A DNA stretch of 64,000 nt, from positions 375,160 through 439,159 of the forward strand of contig NZ_QPMK01000003.1 of the NCBI RefSeq assembly GCF_003344785.1, written 5' to 3'. A program made the position numbers and the translations under genes. The notes under the pieces were generated by a model. The model ran no database searches, was not told the DNA's origin, and worked only from the letters and a program-made list of their open reading frames with translations. Shown piece by piece: positions 49,024 through 57,647 of this stretch; the stretch's first letter is position 1; each line of letters opens with the position of its first letter. The DNA comes from Thalassococcus profundi. GTDB lineage: Bacteria > Pseudomonadota > Alphaproteobacteria > Rhodobacterales > Rhodobacteraceae.

Positions 49024-50259
49024 ATGCTGGACCAGTCCCCCGTGACCCAAGACGCCGCGGCGCGGAGCGCACCACAGCCCGTCGTCGACGTCATCGACGC
49101 CTACGAGGCCTTCGAGGCGCTGCGCCCGGCCTGGAACGCGCTCTTTGCCCGCGATCCCGAGGCGACGCTGTTCCTGTCCTGGGCCTGGCTGGCCGAGGGC
49201 CTGTCGGAAAACCCGCGCCGCTGGCGCATCTTCGTCGCGCGCAACCCGCACCAGCTTAGCCAGATCGTCGCCGTCCTTCCGCTGCGCCTGCGCGTGCACT
49301 GGAGCCGCGAGCGCGAGGAATTCACCACCGAATGCGACGCCGCCGGACGGCTGCTGCACAGCCTCTGGACCGGCCTGCTCTGCGATCCCGACTGGGAAGA
49401 GGCGGCCATGCCGGCGCTGGCGCGGGCGGTGGCGCAGACGCCCTGGACCGAGCTGTCGCTGCGCTATGTCCGCAGCACCCGCCGCGCCGAGGCATTCGCG
49501 GCGGCGTTCGATCCCGCGGAGTTCCGGCTGAGCTGGAAGACCTACACGGTCAACGCGGGCGCCACCGACAACCTTGTCGCGCCGCGCCTGGTGCTGCCGC
49601 TGAGCTTCGAGACCTGGCTGCAGACCGCGCCGTCGCGGGGCGTGCAGGACCTGATCCGCCGCACGCGGCGGCGTTATCTCGACAGCGGGCGCTGGACGCT
49701 CACCCGCAGCGATGCCGACACCCACGAGCGCGACCGCGAGGCGCTGCTGGCGCTTTGGGTGGCGGAACGCGGGGTGAAAAGCGGCTCTGACGAAGCGCAG
49801 GCGCTGGCCGAGGGGTTCCGCAGCCGCCTAGACCTGGCGCGCCGGCTGGGTTGCCTCGACCTGAGCGTCTTGTGGGACGGGGACACGCCGGTCGGCGCGG
49901 TTGCGCATCTGCTCGATCACGACATGGACCGGATGCACCTCTTGCTCATGGGCCGCGATCCCGGTGACGCGCCGGGCGCGCCCGAGCTGATCCTGATTCC
50001 CGAAAGCATCCGCTGGGGCATCGACCAGGGCTTCGACCGCTACGAGTTCGGGGCCGGGGACCAGCCGTGGAAATTCGCCTTTGGCGCGCAGCGCCGCGAG
50101 ATGCGGTATTTTGCCCTGCGCCGCCGCGCCGCGCCGCGCGCCTTCGCGCTGGACCGGCTGTGCCTGCCGGATGCGGTGGAGCGGGTGGCCGAGATGGTGC
50201 GCATGGGCAAGACCGAGCGCGCGCAGCAGGGGCTCGACCAGCTCAAGCAGCTGGTCTGA
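49024..50259 (+). CDS. GNAT/CelD-BcsL-type acetyltransferase
   Basis: A 411-residue protein of the BioF2-like/CelD acetyltransferase group, with two GNAT-type halves. The second half shows the conserved FHRLLA-like position as DRMHLLLMGRDPGDAPGAPELILIPESIRWGIDQGFDRYEFGAG and then PWKFAFGAQRREMRYFALRR. Members often act in polysaccharide or cell-surface modification. Co-directional with the APH-like gene just upstream, 3' end convergent with the GAPDH-like gene. Confidence 0.8.
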   Translation: MLDQSPVTQDAAARSAPQPVVDVIDAYEAFEALRPAWNALFARDPEATLFLSWAWLAEGLSENPRRWRIFVARNPHQLSQIVAVLPLRLRVHWSREREEFTTECDAAGRLLHSLWTGLLCDPDWEEAAMPALARAVAQTPWTELSLRYVRSTRRAEAFAAAFDPAEFRLSWKTYTVNAGATDNLVAPRLVLPLSFETWLQTAPSRGVQDLIRRTRRRYLDSGRWTLTRSDADTHERDREALLALWVAERGVKSGSDEAQALAEGFRSRLDLARRLGCLDLSVLWDGDTPVGAVAHLLDHDMDRMHLLLMGRDPGDAPGAPELILIPESIRWGIDQGFDRYEFGAGDQPWKFAFGAQRREMRYFALRRRAAPRAFALDRLCLPDAVERVAEMVRMGKTERAQQGLDQLKQLV

Positions 50260-50265
50260 GGACGC

Positions 50266-51243
50266 TCAGCCGCGTGCCGACATGCGCCGGGCCATGTCGA
50301 TCATGCGCGCCGAAAAGCCGTATTCGTTGTCGTACCAGCCGAAGATGCGCAGCTGATCGCCTCTGGGCAGGGTTTCGGGCAGGGCGATGACCAGCGACTC
50401 GGGCCGGCCGCGCAGGTCCGTCGACACGCAGGGATCGTCGGTCCAGCCGATCACCTCCGATGCCTCGGCGAGCGCCCGGAGCGCGTCCTCCGCAGGTCCT
50501 GCGGGCGGCGACGACAGCCGCAGCGTCACGTCGATGGCCGAGACCGAGATCACCGGCACACGCACCGCCGCTCCCGTGACCCGTCCCGCGATGTCAGGCA
50601 GCACCAGGTCGATCAGGTGCGTGGCGCTGGTGGTGGTGGGCACCATTGACACCGCCCCGGCACGGCTGCGCGCGAAGGGCCCGCGCGGCGCGTCGACCAT
50701 GGGCTGGCTGCCGGTGTAGCAATGCACCGTGGTCATGTGCCCCGACAGGATGCCGAAGCGGTCCTGCACGGCCCGCAGTAGCGGCGCGAGCGCGTTGGTG
50801 GTGCACGACGCGTTCGACACGATCCGTGCATCGCCCAGCGTGTCCTCGTTGGCGCCCAGCACGATCGTCCGCTCGGCCTCGTCGCAGGGGCCGGAGATGA
50901 GGACGCTGCGCGCGCCGGCCTTTAGCCCCTGTGCCGCATGGGCGCGGGTCTGGATCGTCCCGGTGCAGTCCATCAGCACATCGACTCCCGAGAGATCGAG
51001 ATCGCCCAAGGCGCGCCTGCCGGTGAAGGGGATGCTCCGGTCGTCGATCCGCAGCATACCGGCCTCGGCGCGGACCCGGCCCGGGTAGGGGCCGAAGACG
51101 CTGTCGTACTGGAAGAGATAGGCACAGGTGGCGGGATCGGCGATGTCGTTGATCAGCGCCAATTCGATATCCGGATGGTGACGCAGCACCTGGCGCAGGA
51201 CCGTGCGACCGATCCTGCCGAACCCGTTCAGCGCGATGCGCAT
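50266..51243 (-). CDS. GAPDH-family dehydrogenase attached to the bhc cluster
   Basis: A 325-residue type I glyceraldehyde-3-phosphate dehydrogenase paralog (or erythrose-4-phosphate dehydrogenase-like). NAD-binding GFGRIGR is at 8-14 with D33, the catalytic C147 is in SNASCTTN, and H174 is in TTVHCYTGSQ. Compared with housekeeping GAPDH the residue after TTN is A instead of C and the loop YTGSQPMVDAPRG differs, so the substrate may differ. It starts 15 bases after the bhcD stop, and AAGG is located in that gap, so it is likely the last gene of the bhc operon. Confidence 0.85.
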   Translation of the reverse strand: MRIALNGFGRIGRTVLRQVLRHHPDIELALINDIADPATCAYLFQYDSVFGPYPGRVRAEAGMLRIDDRSIPFTGRRALGDLDLSGVDVLMDCTGTIQTRAHAAQGLKAGARSVLISGPCDEAERTIVLGANEDTLGDARIVSNASCTTNALAPLLRAVQDRFGILSGHMTTVHCYTGSQPMVDAPRGPFARSRAGAVSMVPTTTSATHLIDLVLPDIAGRVTGAAVRVPVISVSAIDVTLRLSSPPAGPAEDALRALAEASEVIGWTDDPCVSTDLRGRPESLVIALPETLPRGDQLRIFGWYDNEYGFSARMIDMARRMSARG

Positions 51244-51258
51244 GGTCTTGGCCTTACG

Positions 51259-52227
51259 TTAGAAATCCACCTCGAGGGCGACGCCCTTTTCGACCGCAAG
51301 CTCTACCACTTTGGCGGCGGTGGCAAGGTCCTGAAGGCCGACTCCGGTGCCGTCGAAGAGGGTGATGTCCTCGTCGCTTGTCCGGCCCGGATGGCTGCCG
51401 TTGATGACGGCGCCGATCTCGGTGATGTCGCTCTCTTCGATCAGCCCTTCGGCGATGGCATGCTGTGCCTCGCCGATGGAGATGCTCTGCGCCACCTCGT
51501 CGGTGAAGACGCGTGCGCGCTTCAGCAGTGCCGCTTCGACCTCCTGCTTGCCCTTGGTGTCGGTGCCCATGCAGGCGATATGTGTGCCAGGAGAGACATG
51601 CGCATCCATCAGGGTCGGATCGAAGCTCGAGGTGATCGAGATGATCACGTCGGCGTCGCGGCCCAGCGTCGGCAAGTCGACCTCTTCGAAGGGCAGGCCC
51701 AGCTCGGCGGCGCAGTCTGCAAGGCGGGACAGCATCTCTGGATGATAGTTCCAGCCGATGACCTTCTTGAAATCCCGGTGTTTCACGGCGGCCTTCATCT
51801 GGAACACCGACTGGTGCCCGGCGCCGATCATGCCGAGGACTTCGCTGTCCTTGCGCGCCAGGTGCTTGATCGACACCGAGGAGGCGGCGGCGGTGCGCAG
51901 CGCGGTCAGCAGGTTGCCGCCCACCATGGCCGAGACCTTGCCGGTGTCCGGATCAAACAGGAACACGGTGGACTGGTGGTTGATCAGTCCGCGCTTTTCG
52001 AGGTTGTGCGGCCAGTAGCCCCCGGCCTTGAGGCCCAGCGACCCGCCGGCGCTGTCGAACCCGCCCTTGAAGCCGTAGAGCGCGTCCTCGTGGCCGATCG
52101 CCTCGCGGACCACGGGGAAGTTGTACGCGTCCTTTGCGGCCATTGCGGCGAAGACCTGCTCGACCGCGTCGAAGGCGGCTTCGGGGGTGATGAGGTCGGA
52201 GATCACGGATTCGGGAACGATGTGCAT
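51259..52227 (-). CDS. bhcD: Iminosuccinate reductase BhcD
   Basis: A 322-residue member of the ornithine cyclodeaminase/mu-crystallin family, the fourth enzyme of the beta-hydroxyaspartate cycle. It reduces iminosuccinate to aspartate with NADH. The Rossmann motif GMIGAGHQS is visible, and the N-terminal GFKGGFDSAGGSLGLKAGGYWP is typical of the BhcD group. The ATG at 52227 follows an AGGA. It is separated from bhcC by 121 bases that hold element copy C, unlike the tight spacing of bhcA-bhcB. Confidence 0.92.
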   Translation of the reverse strand: MHIVPESVISDLITPEAAFDAVEQVFAAMAAKDAYNFPVVREAIGHEDALYGFKGGFDSAGGSLGLKAGGYWPHNLEKRGLINHQSTVFLFDPDTGKVSAMVGGNLLTALRTAAASSVSIKHLARKDSEVLGMIGAGHQSVFQMKAAVKHRDFKKVIGWNYHPEMLSRLADCAAELGLPFEEVDLPTLGRDADVIISITSSFDPTLMDAHVSPGTHIACMGTDTKGKQEVEAALLKRARVFTDEVAQSISIGEAQHAIAEGLIEESDITEIGAVINGSHPGRTSDEDITLFDGTGVGLQDLATAAKVVELAVEKGVALEVDF

Positions 52228-52268
52228 GGGGGTCCTTTCAGGCCGGCAGGCCGCCTGCCGGGAATTGG

Positions 52269-52345
52269 ATCGCCCGGGGTGCCCCCGGGCGATGCGAGAG
52301 ACGCTGTCTCTCGCGCTCTCTGGAGTTTGTTTGCAAGATGAAGCC
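52269..52345 (-). repeat. Dispersed two-hairpin element, copy C
   Basis: On the minus strand it begins CTTCATCTTGCAAACAAACTCCAGAGAGC, then stem 1 CGAGAGAC-AGC-GTCTCTCG (within 52294-52314), then stem 2 ATCGCCCGGGG-CA(G/C)-like loop-CCCCGGGCGAT (52269-52293, 11 paired bases). It begins right after the bhcC stop, in the direction of the bhc transcript, and ends before the bhcD ribosome binding site. It may act as an intra-operon processing or attenuation site; this is inference. Confidence 0.85.
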
Positions 52346-52348
52346 GGA

Positions 52349-53512
52349 TCAGTAGGCCTTGCCGCGCGCAGAGACCGGCCAGAGGGTTTCGACCTTGCCG
52401 TTGCGGACGCCCACGTACCAGTCGTGCACGTTGCACGTCGGATCGCAGTGGCCGGGCACGAGGCGCAGCTTGTCGTTGACCTTGAGCACACCGTCGGGGT
52501 CGGAGACGACGCCGTGCTCGTCGGAGCATTTGACGTATTCCACGTCCGTCCGCCCGAAGATCACCGGCAGGCCGCTGTCCACCGACTGCGCCTTGAGGCC
52601 AGCGTCGACGATGGCCTTGTCGGCCTTGGCATGGCTCATGACGCTGGTCAGCAGGAACAGCGCGTTTTCCCATTCGCCGCGGTCGATGCGGTTGCCGTCC
52701 TTGTCCAGGATGCGGCCGTAGTCAGCATCCATGAAGGCGTAGGAGCCGCACTGCAGCTCGTTGAAGACGCCGGAAGCGGATTCGAAGTAGTAGGATCCGG
52801 TGCCGCCGCCGCCGACGATGTCGCTCTCGATGCCTTCGGCCTTGAGCAGTTCCAGCGTTTCGGAGACTTGGCTGATGGCGATGTCGGTCTTGGCCTTGCG
52901 GTCCTCGTAGCTGTCCATGTGCTGCATCGCGCCCTGGTAGGCCTGGATGCCGGCATATTTCAGGCCGGGTGCCGCGTCGATGGCCTTGGCGAGCTCGACG
53001 ACCGGCTGGCCGTACTGCACGCCGCAGCGGCCCGCGCCCACGTCGATTTCCACCAGGCATTCGATCTGCGTGCCGTGTTTCTGGGCTGCGGCCGAGAGGT
53101 CGGCCACGTTGTCCAAGTCGTCGACGCAGCAGATGGTGCGCGCGCCCAGCTTTGGCATCCGCGCAAGGCGGTCGATCTTGGCGGGGTCGCGGACCTGGTT
53201 GGAGACCAGCACATCCTTGATGCCGCCGCGGGCGAAGACCTCGGCCTCGGAGACCTTCTGGCAGCAGACGCCGACGGAGCCGCCGAGCTTTTCCTGCAGC
53301 AGCGCCACGTCGACGGATTTGTGCATCTTGCCGTGCACGCGGTGGCGCATGCCGTGCGACTTGGCGTAATCGCCCATCTTCCTGATGTTGCGCTCGAGCG
53401 CGTCGAGGTCGAGCACCAGGCAGGGGGTCTGGATCTCGGATTCGTCCATGCCGGGCAGGGCGGGCACGTCGAAGCCCACCTCGAGGTCGGAATAGTCGGT
53501 GATATCTTTCAT
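52349..53512 (-). CDS. bhcC: beta-Hydroxyaspartate aldolase BhcC
   Basis: PLP- and metal-dependent enzyme of the D-threonine aldolase family that condenses glycine with glyoxylate to (2R,3S)-beta-hydroxyaspartate. It has 387 residues. The probable PLP lysine is K62 in HRVHGKMHKS, and the C-terminal metal-site region PGHCDPTCNVHDW is present. The first part (MKDITDYSDLEVGFDVPALPG) matches the group. GGGAG precedes the ATG. It is 45 bases from the bhcB stop. Confidence 0.93.
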   Translation of the reverse strand: MKDITDYSDLEVGFDVPALPGMDESEIQTPCLVLDLDALERNIRKMGDYAKSHGMRHRVHGKMHKSVDVALLQEKLGGSVGVCCQKVSEAEVFARGGIKDVLVSNQVRDPAKIDRLARMPKLGARTICCVDDLDNVADLSAAAQKHGTQIECLVEIDVGAGRCGVQYGQPVVELAKAIDAAPGLKYAGIQAYQGAMQHMDSYEDRKAKTDIAISQVSETLELLKAEGIESDIVGGGGTGSYYFESASGVFNELQCGSYAFMDADYGRILDKDGNRIDRGEWENALFLLTSVMSHAKADKAIVDAGLKAQSVDSGLPVIFGRTDVEYVKCSDEHGVVSDPDGVLKVNDKLRLVPGHCDPTCNVHDWYVGVRNGKVETLWPVSARGKAY

Positions 53513-53557
53513 GGTCTCATCTCCCGTTGAGAACTGTGAATGGATGGAGGACGCCGG

Positions 53558-54538
53558 TCAGAGCGTCCAGGGCAGCTTGTCGAGATCGACATTGCCGCCG
53601 GTGACGACGACGCCCACGCGCTTGCCGCGGAACACCTCGGGGTTCTTGAGGATCACCGCGAGCGGCACGGCGCAGCTGGGCTCCATCACGATCTTCATGC
53701 GCGCCCAGGTGAGTTTCATCGCGTCGATGATTTCCTGCTCGGAAGCGGTGAGGATGTCGGTCACATGCTGGCTGACGAAAGCCCAGGTGTTTTCCTTCAG
53801 CGGCACCTTCAGACCGTCGGCCACGGTGTCGGGCGCGTCGTCGGCGATGATGTGCCCGGCCTTGAAGCTGCGCATGGCATCATCGGCCTGTTCGGGCTCG
53901 GCCGCGTAGATCTTCACATCCGGCGCCAGCGTCGAGAGCGTGAGGCAGGTGCCAGAGATCATGCCGCCGCCGCCAATGGGGGCGACCACGGCATCAAGAC
54001 CGTGGCCGTACTCGGCCTCCATCTGCTCCATCAGTTCCTTCGAACAGGTGCCCTGGCCCGCGATCACCCGCGTGTCGTTGTAGGGATGCACGAATTCCGC
54101 GCCGGTCTCTTCCTGCACCTTGGCAAAGGTGGCCTCGCGGCTGCTGGTCGAGGGTTCGCATTCGGTGATGATGCCGCCGTAGCCGCGCACCGCGTCCTTT
54201 TTCGCCTGCGGCGCAGTGCGTGGCATGACCACGTGGCAAGGGATGCCGCGGCGGCCTGCGGCGTAGCTGAGCGACAGGGCGTGGTTGCCGGAACTGTGGG
54301 TGGCGACGCCGCGGGCCGCTTGTTCGTCCGACAGGCCGAAGACCGCGTTGGACGCGCCGCGCACCTTGAAGGCACCGGCCTTCTGGAAGTTCTCGCACTT
54401 GAAGAACAGCTCTGCGCCGGTCTTCTCGTTGAGAAAGCTCGAGGTCAGCACCGGGGTGCGGTGGATGTACGGCTTGATCCGCTCGTGCGCGGCAAGCATG
54501 TCGGCATAGGTTGGCAGTATGTCTGTCATGTCCTTCAC
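53558..54538 (-). CDS. bhcB: beta-Hydroxyaspartate dehydratase BhcB
   Basis: PLP enzyme of the serine/threonine dehydratase fold that converts beta-hydroxyaspartate to iminosuccinate and water. It has 326 residues, PLP lysine K59 in NFQKAGAFKVRGA, and the glycine-rich phosphate loop IGGGGMISG. The start is a GTG at 54538 overlapping the bhcA stop (GTGA), preceded by GGAGG with 7-base spacing; the ATG at 54529 has no usable site. Coupled to bhcA. Confidence 0.93.
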   Translation of the reverse strand: MKDMTDILPTYADMLAAHERIKPYIHRTPVLTSSFLNEKTGAELFFKCENFQKAGAFKVRGASNAVFGLSDEQAARGVATHSSGNHALSLSYAAGRRGIPCHVVMPRTAPQAKKDAVRGYGGIITECEPSTSSREATFAKVQEETGAEFVHPYNDTRVIAGQGTCSKELMEQMEAEYGHGLDAVVAPIGGGGMISGTCLTLSTLAPDVKIYAAEPEQADDAMRSFKAGHIIADDAPDTVADGLKVPLKENTWAFVSQHVTDILTASEQEIIDAMKLTWARMKIVMEPSCAVPLAVILKNPEVFRGKRVGVVVTGGNVDLDKLPWTL

Positions 54539-55725
54539 GCGGCAGCCTCCGTTGCGATGGGGGTTCCGTGGCGGTAGACCGCTTGCGCGGCCCCCACTCC
54601 GGAGCCCAGGGTGATGTTCAGGCCCAGGTCCGCCATGACCATTTCCGCCGTGGCGATGCCCGACAGGGCCATGGCATCGGTCAGCTGGCCCAGGTGGCCG
54701 ATCCGGAAGACCTTGCCGGCCACGTCGCCAAGCCCGGTTCCGAAGGCCATGCCATATTCATGTGCGGCACGTTCGACGATTGTCGAGGCATTGAAGCCCT
54801 CGGGCGTGCGAATGGCCGTCACGGTGTTGGAATAGAGATCGGGGCTCACCGCGCAAGGGCTCATGCCCCAGGACTTGACCGCGGCGCGCACACCGTCAGC
54901 GATGCGGGCATGGCGGGCGAAGACGTTGTCGAGCCCTTCGGACAGCAGAATGTCGGTGGCGAGCTTCAGACCGTTCAGCAGGCCCACGGCGGGCGTGTAG
55001 GGATAGGCGTTGGCCGCGTAGCCCTTGCGCATGTCGTCGATGCTCCAGAATGTTCGGGGCAGGGTGGCGGACTTGCTGGCGGCGACGGCCTTTTCCGAGA
55101 AGCAGGCGATGGCGAGCCCCGCGGGCAGCATGAAGCCCTTCTGGCTGCCGGTCACGGCCACATCCACGCCCCAGTCGTCGAAGCGGAAGTCCATCGACCC
55201 GATGGAGCTGACGCCGTCGACCAGCAGCAGCGCGCCGTGGCCCGCCGCATCCATGGCGCGGCGCAGGCCGGCGATGTCCGACACCACGCCGGTTGCGGTC
55301 TCGTTATGGGTGGCGAGCACGGCCTTGATCCGGCCTTCGGTGTCGGCGCGCAGGATCTCTTCGAACCGCGCGACCGGCAGGCCTTCGCCCCAGGGCACGT
55401 CGACCTGTGTGACGTCGAGGCCGAAGCGCTGGCACATGTCGATCCACTTGTGGCTGAACATGCCGTTGCGCGCGGCGAGGATGCCGTCGCCGGGGTTCAG
55501 CGTGTTCGACAGCGCCGCTTCCCAGCCGCCGGTGCCGGAGGCGGGGAAGATGAACAGCTCGCCGCGGGTGGTCTTGAGCACCTTTTTGCAGCCGTCGATG
55601 GCCGGGTGCAGGATCGTCGCGAAGAGCGGCGAGCGGTGGTCGATCGTCGGCATGTCGCAGGCCTTGCGGATCGCCTCGGGAATGTTGGTCGGGCCGGGGA
55701 TGAAGACCGGGTTCTGAATGCTCAT
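54535..55725 (-). CDS. bhcA: Aspartate-glyoxylate aminotransferase BhcA
   Basis: Class V PLP aminotransferase that makes glycine and oxaloacetate from glyoxylate and aspartate, the first step of the beta-hydroxyaspartate cycle. It has 396 residues, PLP lysine K196 in VTGSQKGFMLPAG, and the aspartate of LLLVDGVSSIGS. A strong AGGAGG lies 8 bases before the ATG. It is the first gene of the leftward bhcABCD-GAPDH transcript. Confidence 0.94.
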   Translation of the reverse strand: MSIQNPVFIPGPTNIPEAIRKACDMPTIDHRSPLFATILHPAIDGCKKVLKTTRGELFIFPASGTGGWEAALSNTLNPGDGILAARNGMFSHKWIDMCQRFGLDVTQVDVPWGEGLPVARFEEILRADTEGRIKAVLATHNETATGVVSDIAGLRRAMDAAGHGALLLVDGVSSIGSMDFRFDDWGVDVAVTGSQKGFMLPAGLAIACFSEKAVAASKSATLPRTFWSIDDMRKGYAANAYPYTPAVGLLNGLKLATDILLSEGLDNVFARHARIADGVRAAVKSWGMSPCAVSPDLYSNTVTAIRTPEGFNASTIVERAAHEYGMAFGTGLGDVAGKVFRIGHLGQLTDAMALSGIATAEMVMADLGLNITLGSGVGAAQAVYRHGTPIATEAAA

Positions 55726-55787
55726 GGGCGGTGCCTCCTGGGTTCTGCATCCTGTCTACAATCTGCCCGTTTGCTGGGCAATTTTTT

Positions 55788-55865
55788 TGAAAACGTTTTT
55801 CATTTTTGGTATGATAAGAAAAACCGAATTGAAACAGGCGCTTGTATTTTTCATGATGTGAAAAA
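55788..55865. promoter_or_regulatory. Two palindromes in the bhcA-bhcR intergenic region (candidate BhcR operators)
   Basis: Palindrome 1 TGAAAA-CGT-TTTTCA at 55788-55802; palindrome 2 TTTTTCA-TGATG-TGAAAAA at 55847-55865. Both are built from the same TGAAAA/TTTTCA half-site, within an otherwise AT-rich 166-base divergent promoter. BhcR of Paracoccus denitrificans is known to bind the bhc promoter region in a glyoxylate-sensitive way. That these exact palindromes are the sites is inference. Confidence 0.55.
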
Positions 55866-55891
55866 CATTTTTGGAAACTTTGGAGACCACC

Positions 55892-56737
55892 ATGGCAGAG
55901 ACTCAGGACACGCAGACCGGCAAGACCACGTCCCGGGCGCGGGGGCGGCCGCGCGCCTGGACCGACCGGACCGACCAGAACACCATCAAGTCGCTGGACC
56001 GCGCCATGGAGGTGCTGGAACGGCTGTCCGAGATGAACGGCGCGACGCTTTCGGAGCTCGCGGGCGCATTGGACCAGGCGCCCGCCAGCGTCTACCGGGT
56101 GCTCTACACGCTCGAGGCGCGGGGCATCGTCGATTTCGATTCGGGCGCGCAGGTCTGGCACATCGGCGCCGGGGCGTTTCAGATCGGCTCGCGCTTCCTG
56201 CGCCGCACCTCGCTGGTGGAACGCGCGCGCCCGGCGCTGCGCGACCTCATGCAGGCGACCGGAGAGACCGCGAACCTGGGCATCGCGCGGGACGGGCAGG
56301 TGCTGTTCCTGAGCCAGGTGGAGACCCAGGCGACGATCCGCGCCTTCTTTGCTCCGGGAACGATGTCGCCGATGCATGCCTCGGGCATCGGCAAGGCGCT
56401 GCTGGCGCAGATGGGGCCGGAGCGGGTGGCGGCGATTCTCGACCGGCACGGGGCGGAGCGCTTCACCGAACACACGCTGACCGGGGAGGCGCTGACGGCG
56501 GACTTGGCGGAAACGCGGGCGCGCGGCTACGCGGTGGATGCGGAGGAAAAGAACCTCGGGATGCGCTGCATCGCGGCGCCGATCTTCGATGTCCACGGCG
56601 AGGCGGTGGCGGGCATTTCGGTCTCGGGGCCGGCCAACCGCATTCCCGACGACTCCATCGCCGCGACCGGCGGGGTGGTGCGGGACGCGGCACAGGCTGT
56701 CACGCGCGGGATCGGGGGACGGGCGCCCGCGGCATAG
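55892..56737 (+). CDS. bhcR: IclR-type regulator BhcR
   Basis: A 281-residue IclR-family transcription factor: N-terminal winged helix (about 30-95, SLDRAMEVLERLSEMNGATLSELAGAL) and C-terminal effector domain (about 110-270, GTMSPMHASGIGKALLAQM; GISVSGPANRIPDD). It stands divergent from bhcA, as in characterised bhc clusters, where it controls the operon in response to glyoxylate. The ATG at 55892 has GGAG 6 bases upstream; an upstream TTG at 55871 has none. Confidence 0.92.
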   Translation: MAETQDTQTGKTTSRARGRPRAWTDRTDQNTIKSLDRAMEVLERLSEMNGATLSELAGALDQAPASVYRVLYTLEARGIVDFDSGAQVWHIGAGAFQIGSRFLRRTSLVERARPALRDLMQATGETANLGIARDGQVLFLSQVETQATIRAFFAPGTMSPMHASGIGKALLAQMGPERVAAILDRHGAERFTEHTLTGEALTADLAETRARGYAVDAEEKNLGMRCIAAPIFDVHGEAVAGISVSGPANRIPDDSIAATGGVVRDAAQAVTRGIGGRAPAA

Positions 56738-56780
56738 GCCGCGGCGCCCAGGTAAAACTCTTGGCTGCGGTCTGGCGCGG

Positions 56781-57647
56781 TCAGGCGACGTTTTCGAGTT
56801 TCACATCCGGGGTCACGCCCAGGGCAAAGCACACGTCGCGCGTCAGTTCCGGGCGGTTCAGCGTGTAGAAGTGCAGCTTGTCGACGTCGCCGTCGATCAG
56901 CTCGGAGCACAGCTCGGTCGCGATGGCGGTGGCCAGCAGATCCTGGCGGTTGTCGCGCTCGGCGGTCTCGAAGGCGTCGATCACCCATTGCGGGATGACC
57001 GTGCCGCAGCTTTCAGCGAAGCGGCGCGCGCCCTTCCAGTTCTCGATCGGCAGGATGCCCGGCACGATGGGCTTGTCGATCCCGGCTTTCACGCAGGCGT
57101 CGCGGAAGCGGAAGAAGGTTTCGGATTCGAAGAAGAACTGCGTCAGCGCCTCGTCCGCCCCGGCATCCAGCTTGCGCTTGAGGTATTCGATATCGGCGGC
57201 CTGGTCGCGCGCCTCGGGGTGGACGTCCGGATAGGCTCCGACGCGGATGGTGAAGTCGCCCGCATCCTTCAGCCCTTCGATCAGTTCCACCGACGATGCG
57301 AATCCTTCGGGGTGGGGGGTGAAGCCGTCCGCCCCCTTGGGCGGATCGCCGCGCAGCGCCACAATGTCGGTCACACCTGCGGCGGCGAAGTCGCGGGCGA
57401 TCTGCAGGGTTTCCTCGCGGGTCGCCTCGACACAGGTCAGGTGCGCGGCGGTGCGCAGGCCCGAATGTTTGTGCAGCGTCGCCACCACATCGCGGGTGAG
57501 GTCGCGCGTTGTGCCGCCGGCGCCGTAGGTGACCGAGACGAAGCGCGGCGCCAGCGGCGCCAGCACATGCACGGTGTCCCAGAGACGGAAAGTCGCCTCG
57601 ATGTTCTTGGGGGGGAAGAATTCGAAGGAAATCTCGGGTCGGGTCAT
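56781..57647 (-). CDS. metF: 5,10-Methylenetetrahydrofolate reductase
   Basis: Flavin enzyme that makes 5-methyl-THF for methionine synthesis. It has 288 residues; the TIM barrel has the N-terminal SFEFFPPK motif (about residues 7-14), VTYGAGGTTRDLT, and DIVALRGDPPKG. AAGG lies 8 bases before the ATG. It is divergent from a LysR gene that has features of MetR, with a candidate MetR palindrome between them. Confidence 0.96.
   Translation of the reverse strand: MTRPEISFEFFPPKNIEATFRLWDTVHVLAPLAPRFVSVTYGAGGTTRDLTRDVVATLHKHSGLRTAAHLTCVEATREETLQIARDFAAAGVTDIVALRGDPPKGADGFTPHPEGFASSVELIEGLKDAGDFTIRVGAYPDVHPEARDQAADIEYLKRKLDAGADEALTQFFFESETFFRFRDACVKAGIDKPIVPGILPIENWKGARRFAESCGTVIPQWVIDAFETAERDNRQDLLATAIATELCSELIDGDVDKLHFYTLNRPELTRDVCFALGVTPDVKLENVA

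Follow-up and report, generated by a model that had tools for sequence, protein, structure and literature searches.

The genes bhcRABCD of Paracoccus denitrificans, as presented in the text of PMC11323563, include an IclR-type bhcR divergent from the four enzyme genes; BhcR is described there as glyoxylate-responsive and as binding the region that corresponds to the bhcR/bhcA intergenic region. In the main text of that paper, neither "glyceraldehyde" nor "GAPDH" was found. Another described case is PykF of Pseudomonas aeruginosa, encoded in a gcl/allantoin cluster and reported in PMC8637920 and PMC12694930 as an extra lower-glycolysis isozyme beside a glyoxylate pathway. A mutant of this second pyruvate kinase grew poorly on allantoin, although the authors leave room for a polar effect (PMC8637920). 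PykF is a different enzyme, associated with the glyoxylate carboligase route in a gammaproteobacterium, and serves here as a precedent by analogy, not as a relative. Among the open-access matches listed, no title or beginning of an abstract was recognized as pairing bhc genes with a GAPDH gene or with purine-breakdown genes; an earlier mention in the original description of the beta-hydroxyaspartate cycle, reportedly from 2019, is possible. The terms GAPDH, glyceraldehyde, and bhc were not found in the searched text of PMC12214560, nor hydroxyaspartate in that of PMC11698098.

In the window (the whole 64,000-nucleotide stretch of Thalassococcus profundi DNA analyzed here), the same enzymes, by profile, were found with a divergent IclR-type regulator gene. 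On the minus strand lie bhcA (L-aspartate-glyoxylate aminotransferase, 54535 to 55725; NF045640, 714 bits versus a cut-off of 650), bhcB (beta-hydroxyaspartate dehydratase, 53558 to 54538; NF045641, 602 versus 550), bhcC (3-hydroxy-D-aspartate aldolase, 52349 to 53512; NF045642, 755 versus 690), and bhcD (iminosuccinate reductase, ATG start, 51259 to 52227; NF045643, 599 versus 500). On the plus strand lies bhcR (55892 to 56737; NF045644, 410 versus 350), with an ATG start and an alternative TTG start at 55871 proposed by the ORF tool. bhcB starts with GTG, and its first 4 bases are also the last 4 of bhcA. The order and coordinates agreed with the earlier note, and its claim of a complete beta-hydroxyaspartate cycle cluster held, since all five proteins, the four enzymes and the opposite-strand BhcR, exceeded their NCBIfam equivalog cut-offs; these profile scores, rather than a tree, gave no sign that the proteins fall outside the Bhc clades. 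The PLP and nucleotide-binding motifs said to be retained were located in all four enzymes: GSQKG at residue 193 of BhcA, FKVRGA at 57 and GGGGMISG at 189 of BhcB, RVHGKMHKS at 58 of BhcC, and GMIGAGHQ at 134 of BhcD. Together with NGFGRIGR at 6 and SNASCTTN at 143 of the GAPDH-like protein, we take these to be PLP, nucleotide, and catalytic motifs. The best solved chains were 6qkb, D-3-hydroxyaspartate aldolase, for BhcC (E = 2.2e-210) and 6rqa, iminosuccinate reductase, for BhcD (E = 1.5e-145). For BhcB, the best solved relative was a probable serine racemase; for BhcA, it was a serine-glyoxylate aminotransferase; no cycle enzyme was listed for either at the E-values asked. Judged by its sequence, bhcRABCD here is the ordinary set of genes with which bacteria build cell material from the two-carbon acid glyoxylate; the cycle itself is already known.

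In contrast to the description of bhcRABCD in P. denitrificans, known to us from the paper text only, bhcD in the window is followed by a GAPDH-like gene (50266 to 51243, minus strand). The 15 bases at 51244 to 51258 that separate the bhcD stop from the GAPDH ATG, as had been noted before, contain AAGG. The product has both GAPDH domains of Pfam, Gp_dh_N and Gp_dh_C (PF00044, 91.4 bits versus 31.7; PF02800, 111.6 bits versus 24.4). Its score with the GAPDH-I model TIGR01534 was 313.2 bits, below the equivalog cut-off of 367.2. We therefore classed it as a GAPDH-fold protein of a separate clade with a putative function. This clade was recovered with an SH-aLRT of 100 in a quick LG+G4 tree, in which 69 of 159 inner branches were weak and for which the program warned of long branches meeting at the outgroup. 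Among 40 relatives, full-length identity to the window protein was 58 to 76 percent within the clade and at most 45 percent for other GAPDHs; for clade members on plasmids it went down to 54 percent. A divergent GAPDH of genome G005, beside a BhcR-like regulator (locus L018), resembled a sister but was dropped as one: it was 48 to 56 percent identical to other GAPDHs of eight genomes and 45 percent identical to the window protein. It was kept as a control, the sole one of 21 controls with a BhcR-like neighbor.

An alignment of 149 clade proteins showed conserved active-site residues. Cys149, His176, Thr179, Arg231, and Ser148 were present in all 149, position 208 was Thr in 128 and Ser in 21, and the NAD-type Asp32 was found in 147; we assume for these residues the usual GAPDH numbering and roles as catalytic, phosphate, and NAD sites. 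Type I GAPDH (TIGR01534) shares both domains and the catalytic and phosphate-site residues with the window protein, but the latter scores under the cut-off, falls in its own clade, is an extra copy, and carries distinctive substitutions. Gly209 was changed to Ser in 149 of 149 clade proteins and Asp181 to Ser in 147 of 149, and the clade also has Asn236Ser and Arg replacing Asn at window residue 278, whereas the first residue at these four positions was kept by 10, 10, 11, and 11 of 11 ordinary GAPDHs. Since the GAPDH-I score is below the cut-off and Gly209Ser and Asp181Ser are clade-wide, an altered substrate is possible. GAPDHs of the GapB type are NADP dependent and gluconeogenic, and Asp32 marks the NAD type. 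Because Asp32 is kept, NAD is likelier than NADP for the clade, and assignment to the GapB type was set aside.

The clade was present in 166 of 394 genomes of the family. It was the only GAPDH match in 2 of the 166 (G231 and G412, 62% and 72% complete), in per-genome counts that may include gene fragments. BhcD and the clade GAPDH occurred together in 93 of the 394 genomes, the GAPDH alone in 73, BhcD alone in 73, and neither in 155 (odds ratio 2.7, raw and not corrected for kinship). The presence of ureide genes was useless as a genome-level correlate because the marker occurred in 354 of the 394 genomes.

Clade genes were listed for 150 of the 166 genomes, and neighborhoods comprised 140 of them plus the window; they end at contig ends, and the linkage statistics are without kinship correction. 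Those of G004, G286, G266, G410, G397, G241, G218, G054, and G055 were left out, with the genes of G004 and G286 being bhc-adjacent by coordinates. Within 8 kb of the 141 loci, bhc genes were found at 38, ureide (purine-breakdown) genes at 69, both at 24, and neither at 58, the last number rising to 69 when two genes were required. In 30 of 35 bhc-linked loci, the clade gene lay directly behind bhcD on the same strand, with a gap of 19 to 338 bases by match ends. Because this gene order was seen again in other genera, with bhcR or without an annotated bhcR, the arrangement is not chance. The companion was found in Rhodobacterales, Agrobacterium, and Rhizorhabdus, at a minority of bhc clusters. 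In the comparison of neighborhoods proposed earlier, the gene recurred behind bhcD. It was intact at three loci with a decayed bhcD. Since 73 of 166 genomes with BhcD have no clade gene and 58 of 141 loci are unlinked, the cycle does not need this GAPDH. That the gene stands outside the described cycle was supported, whereas its description as a local extension of the bhc string was not, as it is more often linked to ureide genes and is kept at loci that lost bhcD. The best interpretation of the window GAPDH is a separable isozyme; the gene is not unique to this locus, nor does it add a fifth enzyme to the cycle.

We consider it fairly probable that the product of the gene behind bhcD is a second GAPDH isozyme, NAD dependent and phosphorylating, from a distinct alphaproteobacterial clade. 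It would be bundled with glyoxylate catabolism, and carbon would pass through it at the triose-phosphate step. Under BhcR, the cycle would convert glyoxylate and glycine to beta-hydroxyaspartate, then to iminosuccinate, aspartate, and oxaloacetate. The clade GAPDH, presumably cotranscribed with bhcD, would handle the glyceraldehyde-3-phosphate (GAP)/1,3-bisphosphoglycerate step as this carbon goes from oxaloacetate into gluconeogenesis, in conditions for which the housekeeping GAPDHs may be unsuitable. In Rhizorhabdus, a malic enzyme gene follows the clade GAPDH gene, and malic enzyme is given as one of the gluconeogenic enzymes of glyoxylate-grown Paracoccus in the text of PMC11323563. The clade enzyme may be an optional companion of pathways that feed the triose-phosphate node or take from it. 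Most of these would be glyoxylate routes (the beta-hydroxyaspartate cycle and ureide breakdown), with De Ley-Doudoroff or glucosylglycerate genes as occasional cases. DgoK and/or a KDPGal-type aldolase, the product of which is GAP, was encoded near the clade gene at 5 of 141 loci (3 within 3.5 kb), and glucosyl-3-phosphoglycerate genes at 5 of 141 (4 within 1.5 kb). The small number of these contexts was counted against our reading, as were the unlinked loci, the BhcD genomes that lack the clade gene, the low GAPDH-I score with the clade-wide changes, the NAD-type Asp32, unlike the NADP-dependent GapB, and the presence of the clade gene in only 27 plasmid records versus 113 for BhcD. Paracoccus accounted for 12 of the 113 and for none of the 27.

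The same reaction could be bundled for another reason: glyoxylate or another pathway aldehyde would block the thiol of the housekeeping GAPDH, and the clade isozyme would tolerate it. We regard this as unlikely, though it agrees with the clade gene being linked both to genes that make glyoxylate and to genes that use it, and with substitutions throughout the clade that lie in the phosphate site or close to it. The P. aeruginosa authors suggest the same for their second pyruvate kinase, but hydroxypyruvate, the sole inhibitor that they name, had no differential effect (PMC8637920). The few De Ley-Doudoroff loci would also need no such tolerance. Less probable still is a new oxidoreductase that derives from GAPDH but acts in glyoxylate metabolism on some substrate besides GAP. 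The gap in identity to other GAPDHs, the low GAPDH-I score, and, at window residues 278 to 283, an Arg and RPES-like stretch particular to the clade would fit it, but Thr179 and Arg231 are invariant, and a few loci link the clade to GAP-producing and 3-phosphoglycerate-using genes.

An erythrose-4-phosphate dehydrogenase-like enzyme supplying PLP synthesis would share the GAPDH fold and suit BhcA, BhcB, and BhcC, whose families are known to use PLP (PF00291 among them). This is very improbable and was discarded on profile scores, residues, and linkage: the TIGR01532 model gave 224.8 bits versus a cut-off of 530.55, below the GAPDH-I score; at positions 179, 181, and 209, Escherichia coli Epd aligns with Met, Asp, and Lys, unlike the clade; and linkage to ureide genes, whose products to our knowledge are not PLP enzymes, has no place in such a reading. 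A meaningless adjacency of frequent, mobile GAPDH copies, suggested by the many unlinked loci and the plasmid-borne clusters, is hardly credible given bhc or ureide genes within 1.5 kb of 74 of 141 clade loci versus 0 of 21 ordinary GAPDH loci, the identical gene order in three taxonomic orders, and at least 26 changes of bhc linkage on the GAPDH tree, many branches of which are weak (starred branches only force fewer label changes: 9 for bhc only, 12 for both, and 15 for ureide only).

The neighborhoods turn one odd neighbor of bhcD into a testable group with conserved active-site residues, often beside glyoxylate pathways. bhcRABCD often sits inside purine-to-glyoxylate clusters. The data suggest that the glyoxylate source need not be glycolate only, purine breakdown being another, so that purine-derived glyoxylate, and not only algal glycolate, may feed the cycle in marine bacteria; this would alter ecological interpretations of the cycle that are based on genomes and transcripts. 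More tentatively, and with rather low probability, the cycle could be the carbon end of purine breakdown in many roseobacters and the GAPDH clade a glyoxylate-tolerant triose-phosphate isozyme, jointly forming one purine-to-sugar-phosphate module transferred as a block, including on plasmids.

The bhcR/bhcA intergenic region (55726 to 55891), between divergent starts, is presumably a shared control region and contains two promoter-like sites on the plus strand (55787 to 55857, as consensus matches only). An Rfam scan over 49900 to 57000 gave no match. The stretch between bhcC and bhcD (52228 to 52348, minus strand) could form three tandem hairpins (fold z = -4.31) and is partly a dispersed repeat, part of it scoring at 40 places in the genome, its own copy included. 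The flanking marker metF, for methylenetetrahydrofolate reductase, lies at 56781 to 57647 on the minus strand (TIGR00676, 318 bits versus 294). The 80 loci examined by name are the closest ones because they are the best 80 of 539; among them, Paracoccus acridae (L314) has the clade gene with no bhc or ureide genes around, and in 9 of the 80, all without bhc, metF precedes the GAPDH gene at a distance of no more than about 1 kb.

The beta-hydroxyaspartate cycle (bhc) cluster occupies 50266-56737 of the window, in a genome of 4.78 Mb. A check of the open reading frames bore out the frames, order and strands given in the earlier note, with bhcR on the plus strand divergent from bhcA, bhcB, bhcC and bhcD on the minus strand. 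The cluster had also been called complete, and BhcA to BhcD and BhcR each scored above their NCBIfam equivalog cut-offs. The cycle in the window is the known one and had been recognised correctly. The best PDB matches of BhcC and BhcD were the solved enzymes 6qkb and 6rqa, respectively; the matches listed for BhcA and BhcB at the E-values asked included no cycle enzyme. The GAPDH-like gene (50266-51243, minus strand) indeed starts 15 bases past the bhcD stop, and it ends 6 bases from a convergent GNAT gene (49024-50259). No terminator-like sites were found on the minus strand between 50150 and 56000.

The GAPDH-like product has both GAPDH domains and scored 313 bits against the type I GAPDH equivalog, below the cut-off of 367. 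Among 40 relatives, full-length members of its clade were 58-76% identical to it, and non-clade GAPDHs at most 45% over the full length; for plasmid members, the identity was as low as 54%. A tree that combined 149 clade proteins with 13 outside it, made with a quick method and under a program warning about long branches, set the clade apart by a branch with an SH-aLRT of 100. The clade gene was found in 166 of 394 genomes sampled from the family (E<=1e-90). Of these 166, only G231 and G412, whose completeness is 62% and 72%, had no other GAPDH match. The clade protein is therefore an extra isozyme. Taken with the gene neighborhoods described below, it is a recurrent isozyme and an optional companion of the bhc cluster; no description of such a clade was found in the open-access literature searched.

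We then compared the active sites, using residue numbers and roles that we take to hold for GAPDHs. The catalytic Cys149 and His176 were invariant in the 149 clade proteins, as were Ser148, Thr179 and Arg231; position 208 was Thr in most (128) and otherwise Ser (21), and Asp32 was retained in 147. Gly209 was replaced by Ser in all 149 and Asp181 by Ser in 147, each original residue being kept in 10 of 11 ordinary GAPDHs. In 99% of the clade, Asn236 was changed to Ser and the Asn at window residue 278 to Arg, followed by an RPES-like stretch; both Asn residues were present in 11/11 ordinary GAPDHs. These residues point to an NAD-dependent enzyme with a phosphorylated triose substrate and a retouched phosphate site.

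The neighborhoods were examined in the window and around 140 further clade genes (fetched from 150 listed, out of 166), reaching up to 8 kb to either side, with neighbors called by tblastn using a reference panel. Of these 141 loci, 14 had bhc genes only, 24 had bhc and ureide genes, 45 had ureide genes only and 58 had neither; when at least two genes were demanded, the numbers were 20, 16, 36 and 69. Bhc or ureide genes lay within 1.5 kb at 74/141 clade loci versus 0/21 ordinary GAPDH loci. A BhcR-like neighbor was seen at 1 of these 21 controls. At locus L018 (G005:C6, GAPDH at 90553-91533), a non-clade GAPDH is divergent from a BhcR-like IclR regulator 48% identical to Sulfitobacter BhcR. 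Where BhcD was accompanied by one or more other bhc genes (35 loci), the GAPDH gene was co-directional and within 400 bases behind bhcD in 30; in the other five, it lay at 535, 772, 2014 or 4623 bases or, once, on the opposite strand. These 30 loci are a minority of the 166 genomes with BhcD. Among named GTDB loci (best 80 of 539 relatives), 40 had ureide genes only, 9 both, 5 bhc genes only and 26 neither. Eight of 27 clade-gene matches on annotated plasmids were examined: bhcABCD-GAPDH was found in Limimaricola, bhcRABCD-GAPDH in Tateyamaria, Agrobacterium (two) and Rhizorhabdus (under generic gene names, with a malic enzyme gene overlapping the GAPDH gene end by 4 bases), and the bhc-GAPDH order interrupted by one extra gene in Sulfitobacter faviae. 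Alloyangia had GAPDH-uraH, and Aliiroseovarius M344 had neither kind of linkage. Glycine is, beside glyoxylate, the second substrate of the bhc cycle; among the glycine-cleavage genes, with no identity floor, gcvH matches lay within 8 kb of the clade gene at 21/141 loci (L099-L238 and the window) and gcvP matches at 10/141.

The isozyme and the cycle are separable. BhcD occurred in 166/394 genomes, together with the clade gene in 93 and without it in 73; a further 73 had the clade gene without BhcD, and 155 lacked both (odds ratio 2.7, p 3e-6, kinship ignored). On plasmid records, BhcD was found in 113 and the clade gene in 27. Bhc linkage requires a minimum of 26 changes on the GAPDH tree, fewer changes being forced by well-supported branches. 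The metF gene, which flanks bhcR in the window, lay within about 1 kb before GAPDH in 9 of the 80 named loci (best 80 of 539 relatives), all without bhc, so the bhc block was gained or lost between metF and GAPDH. A search of 103 unlinked loci and G002 revealed bhcD pieces directly before an intact GAPDH gene in three genomes: 27 residues of the C terminus in G002, 102 residues of the N terminus in G274 (which has a full BhcD elsewhere) and 24 residues near the C terminus in G309. No such pieces were found in the downstream control stretches. The isozyme can therefore outlive the cycle genes.

The bhcRABCD genes are often located in purine-breakdown clusters. Of 113 plasmid BhcD records, three were examined. 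Leisingera (L337) and Ruegeria AD91A (L339) have the order ureidoglycine aminohydrolase-bhcR-bhcABCD-nucleobase permease-ureidoglycolate lyase-allantoinase-uraH-puuD-xdhA, with AmiS/UreI before the permease in Leisingera only, and no GAPDH gene was found in the stretches inspected; Pseudosulfitobacter (L338) has guaD-ureidoglycine aminohydrolase-bhcRABCD. Among the matches listed (the first 150 for each gene), 78 genomes had both bhcD and a ureidoglycine aminohydrolase gene; the two lay within 10 kb of each other in 39, and 27 of these had no linked GAPDH. In T. profundi, the ureide genes lie away from the cluster (G000:C2:392506) and a GlcD-like gene is present at C2:300635 (448 bits, below the cut-off of 568), so that either purine or glycolate is a possible glyoxylate source.

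A gluconeogenic route requires a GAPDH. The clade gene would furnish this step, controlled along with the glyoxylate pathway, and supplying it under such control is the most likely role of the isozyme. According to PMC11323563, the bhc cycle converts two glyoxylate to oxaloacetate, feeding the TCA cycle and gluconeogenesis. The same paper names malic enzyme, PEP carboxykinase and aldolase as gluconeogenic enzymes and finds them decreased when the regulator CceR is lost during growth on glyoxylate. The closest parallel is a second pyruvate kinase of P. aeruginosa, also encoded in an allantoin/glyoxylate cluster (PMC8637920, PMC12694930). Its mutant is described as growing poorly on allantoin despite the main isozyme, with polar effects possible, and the authors suggested that an intermediate inhibits the main isozyme (PMC8637920).

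Two further contexts were seen, each at 5/141 loci. DgoK and/or a KDPGal-type aldolase, named like the lactonase from sequence and not from a profile, were near the clade gene: both with a lactonase within 3.5 kb at L219 and L216, all three at 4-5.4 kb at L195, DgoK directly before the clade gene at L179, and DgoK at 6.4 kb at L138. The other comprises genes for glucosyl-3-phosphoglycerate synthase (below its equivalog cut-off) and phosphatase (above the subfamily cut-off, 169/165, and below the equivalog one), within 1.5 kb at four loci, three of them also bhc-linked. Because both contexts share the triose-phosphate node, GAP/1,3-BPG is favored as the substrate over a new aldehyde. An aldehyde dehydrogenase gene, more than 55% identical to the L219 copy, directly follows the clade gene at 7/141 loci (L179, L190, L192, L209, L210, L216 and L219), all without bhc or ureide genes.

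Finally, the bhcC-bhcD gap (52228-52348) contains three tandem hairpins at 52262-52345, whose stems comprise 9, 11 and 8 pairs around loops of 3, with a fold z of -4.31. This stretch may set how strongly bhcABC is expressed relative to bhcD-GAPDH. Part of it is a dispersed repeat with 40 scored places in the window's genome, the gap copy counted, among 119 candidates. The repeat was absent from the relatives G002 and G004 at E<=1e-6 and present twice in G001 and four times in G003, where one copy also lies directly 5' of bhcD.
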